A stretch of DNA of 64,000 bases from contig LR882958.1 in assembly GCA_904830895.1 (NCBI GenBank), positions 1,978,001 through 2,042,000 on the forward strand. Direction: 5' to 3'. The stretch is from Planktothrix rubescens CCAP 1459/22. Its GTDB lineage: Bacteria > Cyanobacteriota > Cyanobacteriia > Cyanobacteriales > Microcoleaceae. The notes beneath the pieces are model-generated. The model was given only the letters and a program-made list of their open reading frames with translations. It was not told the origin of the DNA and ran no database searches. Positions 5,401-8,818 of the stretch are shown piece after piece. A program made the position numbers and the translations under genes. Each line of letters opens with the position of its first letter. The first letter of the stretch is position 1.

Positions 5401-5490
5401 AAAAATACCAAGGATTTAGTTTCGGTGATCCTTGTGTTTTACCCAAGGTCTGAAGAACCTCAATATCCACTATTCCATGATTATTTTCTT

Positions 5491-5554
5491 ATGAGCCTAA
5501 ATATTGTTACGTTGGTTGGTCGCGCTGGTGGCGATCCAGAAGTCAAATACTTTG
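5491..5554 (+). CDS. ssb: Single-strand DNA-binding protein SSB, exon 1
   Basis: First 21 codons plus one base of ssb, coding MSLNIVTLVGRAGGDPEVKYF and the first G of a Glu codon. This is the start of the OB fold of cyanobacterial SSB, which coats single-stranded DNA in replication and repair. Immediately after the exon the sequence becomes GTGCGAC, the 5' end of a group II intron, and the reading frame would otherwise stop six codons later. Joined to 7971-8266 it gives an unbroken frame of 360 bases (119 residues plus stop), the normal length for this family. No duplicate ssb is seen in the window. Confidence 0.9.
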
Positions 5555-6190
5555 GTGCGACTCGTTAAGCGTAAAAGTCATCAACATCTGATAGCGTAAC
5601 GCTTGGAAGGAATTGTAGATAAGATACAAGTCCTTGATAACTTAATTCCTGAGTGGGTGAGATTTCCAAGAAATGTTACAAACTTAGCAAATCTTTAGAA
5701 ATCAATTCCCACCGTCTAAATGCAAGACGAAGCAATGCTCCCACTGGAGAGACTGACCATCAAACTGGTGAAGCGGGGCATAACGGAGGTAACTGGTGAA
5801 CCTATCAGGGAATCCCTTCTAGCCCAGATGAGCATGAGTAAGGAAACTAAATCTGCGACTGAACCAACGTCATTGACAACAGCCTACATAGGTTATCGGC
5901 TGGGCCAAAAGGCAAGGATAAGGGCTAGGCATCTCGAAGTGTGACCTAGAGCATTCCCAAAGAAACCCGTTGGATAGCAGGACTCTAACCTCATCGCAAA
6001 GCAGGAATTAGGAACGAGATAACTTCTTGTGTAATCTCTCAGGAGGTCGAAAACCTGAGTAGGCAGTCAAGCCGCATGATGCTAAGAAGCGAGATTGATT
6101 CAGAAGCCAACGCCTTTAGGAAATCTAAAGGATATGCTGACGGAATCACGGTGATTTGGAGATAGAAAATCAAGTAAAGGTGCAAATGTC

Positions 6191-7942
6191 ATGAACACGG
6201 CTCTTAAACCGATGTATGAATGGGAAACAATAAACTGGGCAAAAGTCCAGAGATATGTTTTCAAGCTTCAAAAGAGAATCTATCAAGCCTCTGAACGTGG
6301 TGATGTTAAGGCAGTTCGTAAGTTACAAAGGCTGTTGACTAATTCGTGGTATGCCAAAGTTCTGGCGCTCAGGAAAGTGACCCAAGATAACAAGGGTAAA
6401 AATACTCCCGGCATTGATAGGATAAAGCGTCTTCGCAATCCTCAGAAAATCAGGTTAGCCAAAGAGTTACACTTCAATGACAAATCCGACCCCACCAAAA
6501 GGGTATGGATTCCAAAACCAGGCAAAGAGGAAAAAAGACCTCTGGGAATACCCACGATGACGGATAGAGCGAAACAAGCCCTAATGAAACTGGCCCTTGA
6601 ACCCGAATGGGAGGCTAAATTTGAGCCTAACTCTTATGGATTCAGACCAGGGCGGTCAGCACATGACGCAATAGCGGCAATTTTCAATGGCATCAATCAA
6701 AAACCGAAATATGTTCTTGACGCTGATATTGAAAAGTGTTTCGACCAAATTAACCATTCAAAATTACTCGATAAATTAGAAACCTCACCCACCTTTAGAC
6801 GGCAAATCAAAGCATGGCTAAAATCAGGGGTTGGGTCAGGCGAAAAACTATTTCCAACGGATGAAGGAACTTCGCAAGGTGGGGTCATATCGCCCCTATT
6901 GGCAAATATCGCCTTACATGGGATAGAAAACGCCCTAGAAGGTAAATTCAGTCGGAGAGTCGGCAAAACCAGTCAAAAGCGTGACATAAGCTTTGTAAGA
7001 TATGCCGATAATTTTGTAATTATGGATGAAGATTTAGAAGTAATCCTCAAAGCAAAATTAGTAATCGAAGAATGGTTAAAAGAAATAGGGCTAACCCTCA
7101 AAGAAAGCAAAACCAGAATCACCCATACCTTTGAAAATCACGAAGGAAAAACGGGATTCGACTTTCTAGGTTTCAATATCCGACAATACCCATGTAGTGA
7201 CAAACAAAGTGGGTCAATCGGCGGAACTGAAAATAAAAGAGGACATAAAACGCTCATTAAACCCAGTAAAGAAGCTATTCAAAGACAACTGGCTAAAATT
7301 GATGACCTATTGAAAAGGAATCGTACCTCAAGCCAAGAGCAAGTTATTAACGCCTTAAATCCAGTAATACGGGGTTGGGCAGCATACTACTCAACGGTGG
7401 CAAGCGCAGATACCTTTAGCAAAATGGACAGCATAATTTTTTCCAAGTTGCGAGGATGGGCTAACAGAAGAAGTGGACGAGGACAGAACAAAACTGAAAT
7501 CATTTCAGCTTACTGGGGGGTCAACAGAGGATTAGGCTGGAAATTTATCACCCAAGATAATAAATATGTACTGGAACTACACCAGAACATGAAAATTCGT
7601 CGCCATATCAAAGTAAAAGACTCAAAAAGTCCTTTTAACGGAGATTGGGCATATTGGGGACAAAGATTAAGCCAACATCCAATGCTAAGAAATATGGCAT
7701 CCAAACTTCTTAAAAAACAAGAAGGAAAATGTAACCACTGTAATTTGAGATTCATTAGTAATAGCTTGCTTGAAATCCATCACATTGATAGAAATCGGGC
7801 AAATAACAAAATTAATAATCTTGAGTTACTACACACGCATTGCCACGACATCAGACACGCAGAAAGAGGTACTCTAACCAGCCAAGTCACTGAGGAGCCG
7901 TGTGAAGCGAAAGTTTCATGCACGGTTCTGAACGAGAGGTAA
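6191..7942 (+). CDS. ltrA: Group II intron-encoded reverse transcriptase/maturase with HNH endonuclease
   Basis: The 583-residue protein helps its intron splice and, if active, copies it into new DNA sites. RT blocks are clear: NSYGFRPGRSAHDAI (about 145), DADIEKCFDQINH (about 177), GTSQGGVISPLLANIALHGIE (about 226) and the catalytic box at 271-274. That box reads YADN rather than YADD; the second Asp codon GAT is AAT here. Domain X (maturase) lies around RGWAAYYST (about 393). A C-terminal HNH nuclease is complete: CNHC, IHHIDRNRANN, LLHTHCHDIRH. The ATG at 6191 follows an AAAGG box. Its last codons overlap domain V and VI. Maturase and nuclease parts look intact; RT activity is uncertain because of the N274 change. 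Confidence 0.92.
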   Translation: MNTALKPMYEWETINWAKVQRYVFKLQKRIYQASERGDVKAVRKLQRLLTNSWYAKVLALRKVTQDNKGKNTPGIDRIKRLRNPQKIRLAKELHFNDKSDPTKRVWIPKPGKEEKRPLGIPTMTDRAKQALMKLALEPEWEAKFEPNSYGFRPGRSAHDAIAAIFNGINQKPKYVLDADIEKCFDQINHSKLLDKLETSPTFRRQIKAWLKSGVGSGEKLFPTDEGTSQGGVISPLLANIALHGIENALEGKFSRRVGKTSQKRDISFVRYADNFVIMDEDLEVILKAKLVIEEWLKEIGLTLKESKTRITHTFENHEGKTGFDFLGFNIRQYPCSDKQSGSIGGTENKRGHKTLIKPSKEAIQRQLAKIDDLLKRNRTSSQEQVINALNPVIRGWAAYYSTVASADTFSKMDSIIFSKLRGWANRRSGRGQNKTEIISAYWGVNRGLGWKFITQDNKYVLELHQNMKIRRHIKVKDSKSPFNGDWAYWGQRLSQHPMLRNMASKLLKKQEGKCNHCNLRFISNSLLEIHHIDRNRANNKINNLELLHTHCHDIRHAERGTLTSQVTEEPCEAKVSCTVLNER

Positions 7943-7970
7943 AAATGGTGACATTTTTATCGACTCTAAT
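7895..7970 (+). ncRNA. Group II intron domains V and VI (catalytic core and branch site)
   Basis: Domain V is exactly 34 bases (7895-7928): arms GAGCCGTGTGAAGC and GTTTCATGCACGGTTC close a GAAA tetraloop, with the AGC triad near the 5' end. Domain VI follows: GGTAAAAATG pairs with CATTTTTAT around a GTGA loop, closed by GAG/CTC, with A7963 the likely bulged branch nucleotide. The last bases TAAT fit the 3' splice consensus. Confidence 0.9.
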
Positions 7971-8266
7971 AGTCCGGTAGTGTTGTCTGTAATTTAACCT
8001 TAGCGGTTAACCGTCGGACTAAAAAAACGGATCAACCCGATTGGTTTAACTTAGAAATTTGGGGAAAAACGGCAGAAGTTGCAGCGAACTATGTCCGTAA
8101 GGGCAGTTTAATTGGGATTAAAGGGGTGTTAAAGTTTGAGTATTGGCAGGATCGTGGTACTGGAACTCAACGATCAAAACCTGTCATTCGGGTTGATGAA
8201 TTAGACCTATTGGGTTCTAAGCGGGATGAGGAAGGTGCGCCTCGGAACAACTATGATGAGTTTTAA
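7971..8266 (+). CDS. ssb: Single-strand DNA-binding protein SSB, exon 2
   Basis: Residues 22-119 of SSB after splicing. The first two bases AG complete the Glu codon begun by exon 1. The OB fold continues as SGSVVCNLTLAVNRR, DQPDWFNLEIWGKTAEVA, NYVRKGSLIGIKGVLKFEYW and PVIRVDELDLLGS. The acidic tail ends NNYDEF, a short form compared with E. coli SSB but normal for cyanobacteria. No good in-frame start lies between the intron end and the conserved VVCNL strand, so this half is unlikely to be made alone. The next gene starts 12 bases downstream and is likely co-transcribed. Confidence 0.9.
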
Positions 8267-8278
8267 ATAGGGAAAACC

Positions 8279-8818
8279 GTGGCTGAAAAACCCTTAGATA
8301 CCGTTAAAATTGCATATCAAGCGGGTCAGTTTGCCTTTGAACAGGGGCGTTATCGAGAGTCGGTTCAATATTTAGAACAGGCTCGTCAAGCTGTGGAACT
8401 CAATTCTCCTCTGGGTGGAGAGATCCAAATGTGGTTAGTCACAGCATTTGAAGCCTCTGGCAAAAGGCAAGAAGCGATCGCTTTATGTAAACAGTTGACT
8501 CGTCATCCGAATATTGGCACTCGTCAACAGGCTCGTCGTTTACTCGAAGTCCTAGAAGCTCCTAAACTCTATATTGACCCAGAGGGATTTGTAAAAATTC
8601 CTGATTTGGGTCATCTGGATGTCCAAGGAAATTACCGACCTCAAAACAATTCGGTGGCGACGGTTCGGTCTATTCCCAAACCCCCGGTTTCGCATAAGGT
8701 GAACTCTGGGGATAGGGTGAAGACTCAAGACAATCAATTTTTGGGGATCGCTTTAATCATCGTGCTTTTGGTGAGTGGCGGATTAATCTGGGTCAGTTCT
8801 TTAATCGGTAATCAGTAA
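8279..8818 (+). CDS. TPR-like protein with C-terminal membrane anchor
   Basis: A 179-residue protein of a conserved cyanobacterial family without an assigned role. Helical, TPR-like repeats occupy roughly residues 5-95 (FAFEQGRYRESVQYLEQARQ, then ASGKRQEAIALCKQLTRHP). A polar linker follows, and one membrane helix near 155-176 (LGIALIIVLLVSGGLIW) ends the protein, so it is likely tail-anchored with repeats in the cytoplasm. The start is GTG, 12 bases after ssb stop, behind a weak GGGAAAA site. The stop codon lies inside a TAATCAG heptamer array, so the last residues (GNQ) are coded by the repeat itself. Confidence 0.75.
   Translation: MAEKPLDTVKIAYQAGQFAFEQGRYRESVQYLEQARQAVELNSPLGGEIQMWLVTAFEASGKRQEAIALCKQLTRHPNIGTRQQARRLLEVLEAPKLYIDPEGFVKIPDLGHLDVQGNYRPQNNSVATVRSIPKPPVSHKVNSGDRVKTQDNQFLGIALIIVLLVSGGLIWVSSLIGNQ

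Follow-up and report, generated by a model that had tools for sequence, protein, structure and literature searches.

The window, a 64,000-nt stretch of a 5.7 Mb cyanobacterial genome, contains an ssb gene that is split by a group II intron. Joining 5491-5554 to 7971-8266 gives 360 nt that encode 119 amino acids plus a stop codon, and the sequence KYF|ESGSVVCNL spans the junction. When read without splicing, ssb reaches a stop 5 codons inside the intron. The features of the locus and the evidence for each are as follows.

5491-5554, plus strand: ssb exon 1, codons 1-21 and the first base of codon 22 (joined frame; tblastn 100% to SSB residues 1-21).
5542-5547, plus strand: IBS2 in exon 1, GTCAAA, of which GTCAA (5542-5546) pairs with EBS2 (co-varies in 14 introns).
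5549-5554, plus strand: IBS1 in exon 1, ACTTTG (6/6 pairs with EBS1, one of them G-U).
5555-7970, plus strand: group II intron, 2416 nt, GUGCG...CUAAU, phase 1 (frame; RF00029 3' end at 7970; empty sites in G229, G001, G005, G006 and G007).
5873-5877, plus strand: EBS2 in domain I, TTGAC (5 bp with IBS2; co-variation).
5935-5940, plus strand: EBS1 in domain I, CGAAGT (6/6 pairs here and in 13/14 species, 5/6 in Hydrococcus).
6191-7942, plus strand: intron-encoded protein (IEP), 583 aa, with RVT_N, RVT_1, maturase (GIIM) and HNH-like zinc motif (Pfam; TIGR04416; PDB 6me0).
7001-7012, plus strand: reverse transcriptase (RT) active-site motif YADN, not YADD (codon 7010-7012 is AAT; YADD in other IEPs).
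7895-7928, plus strand: domain V, 34 nt (RF00029 and fold).
7934-7966, plus strand: domain VI, with a bulged predicted branch-point A at 7963, the 8th base from the 3' end (fold).
7971-8266, plus strand: ssb exon 2, the remainder of codon 22 to the stop (joined frame; PF00436/NF005674).

The joined protein matches PF00436 in a profile search (4.8e-27) and reaches 199.5 bits (1.3e-59) with the cyanobacterial SSB equivalog NF005674, whose cutoff is 161; the latter match covers the full spliced product. In sister genomes ssb is intron-less, and the empty site coincides exactly with the predicted codon. These matches indicate that the joined exons encode a normal cyanobacterial SSB of the Alr0088 type. 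The 119-aa Alr0088 of Anabaena PCC 7120 likewise consists of an OB-fold without a P/G-rich linker (PMC3976300), but the window's gene differs from it in being split by an intron. The first-pass annotation had placed the boundaries at 5554/5555 and 7970/7971, and the joined frame, the SSB profiles and the empty sites in relatives show these to be exact to the base; its 120-codon frame, proposed to restore the KYF-ESGS-VVCNL region, corresponds to the 119 residues and the stop. It had also suggested aligning relatives to look for an intron-less site at the same codon, and such sites are present in the same-species genome G229 and in sister genomes. The IEP, EBS1, EBS2, the wide recurrence of the insertion at the same site and a second SSB gene in the genome go beyond that annotation.

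The intron starts with GTGCG and finishes with CTAAT, in agreement with the GUGYG and AY ends of group II introns. Rfam model RF00029 matches 7893-7970 with 62.6 bits (gathering threshold 40), and the final model position falls exactly on 7970. The D5/D6 segment folds at -32.5 kcal/mol with z = -6.55, and 0/200 shuffled sequences folded equally well. The assignment of a group II intron with a 34-base domain V and a bulged domain VI adenosine (A7963) therefore holds. Examination of domains I-IV covered the conserved blocks and the EBS elements, and EBS1 and EBS2 were located by alignment of 14 ssb introns, each with its own exon 1. The EBS2 and IBS2 sequences form 49 Watson-Crick pairs over 11 distinct combinations compared to 38.6 with shuffled partners, and 0/20,000 shuffles scored as high, a figure that serves as a guide because the sequences are related and not independent. 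Compensatory EBS2 changes are found in UBA11370 (GTCCG/CGGAC), Symploca SIO2E6 (GTCAG/CTGAC) and G286 (GTAAG/CTTAC). The alignment thus indicates that the EBS2 of each intron changes together with the IBS2 of its host, and the compensatory changes are direct evidence of this. An earlier EBS1 candidate, CCCAAAG near 5958-5964, was dropped because it does not co-vary with IBS1, unlike CGAAGT at 5935-5940.

The RVT_N, RVT_1 and GIIM domains of the IEP score above the Pfam cutoffs; HNH scores 19.7 bits, below its cutoff of 21.4, with the zinc motif visible. TIGR04416 matches with 333.6 bits (cutoff 300). The nearest solved protein is PDB 6me0, 'Maturase reverse transcriptase' (9.5e-103), which we take to be Thermosynechococcus T.el4h. 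The label CL (chloroplast-like) is a putative one, with which this best PDB match and a D5 match to plastid ndhA/ndhB agree. YADD, the RT motif used as the test for retromobility, reads YADN in the window's IEP, a call that depends on one base in one assembly. YADD is found in every other IEP with a readable motif, and the G002 and G008 copies, which are 90% identical, are among them. Changes at the RT active site of group II intron proteins can abolish mobility and leave maturase activity in place. No second copy of the ssb intron is present in the window's genome. Together with YADN, this absence suggests that the intron is probably splicing-only now, and the ssb intron of this strain may be splicing-competent but no longer mobile. 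The window's intron would belong to the CL-class mobile introns by descent and is probably not mobile today. Degeneration is also visible elsewhere: the IEP has internal stops in G017 and G022 and is gone in G194, and ssb is still intact in these genomes. Splicing itself, the loss of mobility and the identity of the maturase used are what we infer from such sequence features.

A search proposed with the original annotation revealed another intact SSB gene in the genome, of the All4779 type (C1:3691548-3692054, minus strand). Such a gene is one of the two observations that, taken together, the annotation had named as refuting its view. All4779 is the major SSB in Anabaena and the Alr0088 type is shorter (PMC3976300). 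The proposal that replication depends on splicing is for this reason unsupported as written, and the suggestion that splicing efficiency sets the SSB level likewise finds no support in the form given. The All4779 type occurs in 40/40 relatives and the interrupted Alr0088 type in 95/99; the conservation of the latter argues that it matters to the cell. No essentiality test of an Alr0088-type SSB was found in the literature. The Alr0088 type has an incomplete tail, and PMC7283527 describes a link to LexA/SOS for it.

Control of its output could matter given this LexA/SOS link in Anabaena (PMC7283527, PMC3091678), and splicing of the ssb intron might then act as a switch that keeps the amount of a stress-linked SSB down. 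A Lactococcus group II intron inhibits expression of its host gene (PMC6003770). However, the same-species and sister genomes manage without the intron, and no convincing LexA box lies just upstream of the window's ssb, where the best site matches 7/10 positions. We regard a switch as improbable.

Two further features of the SSB genes were noted in the genus. The All4779-type protein of most genus genomes (L161-L169) continues for ~33 conserved residues past the acidic DPIPF tip, the usual end of an SSB protein, and the All4779-type open frame of G005 is only 169 aa. Some genus genomes (G001, G007 and G002; L063, L064 and L065) have a second Alr0088-type ssb copy that is ~61% identical, and none is found in the window's genome.

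Genus genomes G002, G003 and G008 carry an insertion at the identical position, one base into codon 22; G004 shows the exon 2 side of this insertion on a contig that begins inside the intron. Outside the genus, it occurs in G017 and G022, two genomes of another, probably Limnospira-like, genus and in Oscillatoria S11.Bin022, UBA11370, Symploca SIO2E6 and SIO2C1, Hydrococcus rivularis, Limnofasciculus baicalensis, Laspinema olomoucense, G204 and G286, and G194 has an ORF-less form that encodes no IEP. These hosts span several families of one cyanobacterial order. The codon-22 IEPs form one clade in a tree of 40 IEPs (support 100/99) with no other intron inside it, and all IEP relatives found at at least ~58% identity sit at the same ssb codon. 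Most of the loci were found through searches with the window's IEP or the exon-intron junction, so this exclusivity means that no exception was found, and a close relative elsewhere could be missed. The exact junction pattern appears in 3/390 genomes sampled over the class, and the insertion is therefore uncommon. No IEP of at least 60% identity was detected among 72,556 plasmids or 50,697 phages. A recent origin as a copy of another intron in the genome was ruled out, since the 13 other alignable IEPs are only 47-53% identical to the ssb IEP; one more matches over a 104-aa remnant only. These comparisons point to one CL-type intron lineage that, in the data searched, is tied to ssb codon 22 in phase 1. 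Two sets of candidates were set aside: a junction-pattern search with 2 mismatches gave many chance matches, among them one in G179, which has an intact ssb elsewhere, and an insertion in G076 was treated as different because it is displaced upstream by one base and no IEP could be detected in it.

Comparison of intron and host sequences bears on how this distribution arose. The same-species genome G229 has an intron-less ssb, and its flanks are 96-97% identical overall to the window and mostly 98-100% identical per 60-nt interval. Inside ssb, the alignment of G229 (L148) with window positions 5460-8355 differs by up to 15% per 60-nt interval, with a lower-identity patch (85-90%) over parts of the gene. 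By sequence comparison, the ssb allele appears to have been exchanged in one of the two same-species genomes, either the window's or G229. The ssb genes of G001 and G002 are 97% identical with no amino-acid change, and only G002 carries the intron. The introns of G002 and G008 are 96% identical, compared to 79% for ssb and 84.5% for the downstream flanks, and G008 has an ssb resembling that of the window's group within flanks 94% identical to G005. The patterns of G002 and G008 therefore reveal both a clean insertion (G002) and replacement of a whole ssb allele (G008). G000 and G003 show the reverse relation, with 81% identity in the intron and 92% in ssb. Between Oscillatoria and Laspinema, identity is 98% for the introns (over 630 nt) and 85% for ssb. 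Absence within the same species, disagreement between intron and gene trees and the presence of two introns in the ssb of some hosts together indicate that the ssb intron moves. Vertical inheritance from an ancestor followed by many losses, in place of repeated homing, finds some footing in the Limnospira-like introns, whose 68% identity to the window's intron is near their ssb identity of 67%, and older branches could therefore be vertical. Within the genus, intron identities conflict with ssb and flank identities in both directions and contradict vertical descent there, and the Oscillatoria/Laspinema identities and the presence or absence of the intron inside one species also stand against it. 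As a general account we consider vertical inheritance very unlikely.

Selection on the joined frame was assessed across the interrupted genes. All joinable interrupted ssb genes (15/15) read stop-free to 119-126 aa, and dN/dS of ssb between intron-bearing pairs is 0.06-0.30, which denotes purifying selection. The window's ssb gives dN/dS values of 0.06 with G003 and 0.14 with the same-species genome that lacks the intron. Without splicing of the RNA, these intact frames and low ratios would be difficult to account for; with the same-species empty site, they argue for the claim that splicing is needed to make this SSB. The genome's second intact SSB and the altered RT motif would allow the intron to be dead, with ssb a broken pseudogene and the All4779-type SSB doing all the work, but the intact exon frame with its dN/dS values of 0.06 and 0.14, the intact EBS1, EBS2, D5, D6 and maturase frame and the frame kept in 15/15 interrupted species leave this hardly credible.

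The best explanation, which we hold with high confidence, is a site-dedicated CL-type lineage at ssb codon 22 that is spliced to yield the 119-aa SSB, is spreading, and is probably splicing-only here. Gene structure, exclusivity of lineage and site in the searched data, EBS/IBS co-variation, within-species polymorphism, tree discordance and selection on the joined frame are its directly observed components. In the proposed mechanism, codon 22 in phase 1 would be the dedicated homing site of a CL-type (chloroplast-like) group II lineage. After transcription, the intron RNA would be aided by the maturase encoded at 6191-7942 or by a related one, A7963 would serve as the branch point and exon 1 would be joined to exon 2 to produce the normal Alr0088-type SSB. 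Spread among species would proceed through retrohoming as well as recombination that carries the entire ssb allele, and EBS2 would follow the local sequence of ssb. The YADN motif and the single copy would leave this strain with an intron that probably only splices. A broader reading, plausible but somewhat short of an even chance, is that ssb codon 22 offers a lasting niche to one intron lineage that is specialized for it and co-evolves with the host site. This lineage would move between genera, sometimes by whole-allele replacement, and then decay in place into forms with a dead RT (this strain), a broken IEP or no ORF, all still able to splice. Such a course would parallel, in bacteria, the path from mobile to resident that is known for organellar introns.

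CL introns are known from reviews to reside in cyanobacterial housekeeping genes (PMC4424553), so introns of this kind are already known and the interest lies in the ssb-dedicated lineage. No report of a group II intron in ssb was found in the open literature. The ssb intron resembles cyanobacterial CL-class introns (IIB ribozyme, RT-maturase-HNH IEP) in IEP domain order, D5/D6, GUGYG/AY ends and EBS-IBS targeting. Group II introns also occupy conserved cyanobacterial genes in Trichodesmium (ribonucleotide reductase, thymidylate synthase; cited in PMC4649490). Their host genes are different, and the ssb site stands out in that many genera carry an intron there and repeated transfer is indicated. 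A free-living bacterium would here need RNA splicing before it can make the product of a conserved DNA-maintenance gene. Within one species, natural genomes with and without the intron offer a clean measure of the cost or role of a group II intron in a housekeeping gene, and the one site displays a gradation from mobile introns to introns that only splice. The dedicated lineage, the co-varying EBS2 and this mobile-to-resident series make a good test system.

Other group II introns were observed in ssb genes and in the window's genome. Introns lie after the first base of codon 50 in ssb of Oscillatoria, Laspinema and UBA11370 (L081 4870-6253, L094 724-2185 and L080 after 4870), and G286 (L153) has one at a third site, KTAE|VAA; two introns in one ssb are possible. 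In Limnofasciculus baicalensis ssb (L173 1026-5970), only one exon base (G) separates two adjoining group II introns that belong to different lineages. The downstream intron can regain its IBS1 only after removal of the upstream one, so ordered splicing is predicted. The G076 insertion (L055 2146-3305) is ~1160 nt and occupies the site of the upstream Limnofasciculus intron. The window's genome has in-frame introns, recognized from the joined flanks, in genes for the ribonucleotide reductase small chain, acetyl-CoA synthetase, cytochrome oxidase subunit II and an RlmL-like methyltransferase (L066, L067, L070 and L071), and ssb is therefore not special in this genome. Four 2522-nt introns with identical IEPs occupy four sites (L070, L071, L072 and L073) and appear from their sequences to be a recently active family, unlike the single-copy ssb intron. 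Other introns of the genome occur as several near-identical copies in different places, whereas the ssb lineage is single-copy per genome and always found at codon 22. At C1:3161907-3168811 (L075, L078), one group II intron is apparently nested in another, and the outer IEP starts 14 nt after the inner 3' end, an arrangement that is likely a twintron.
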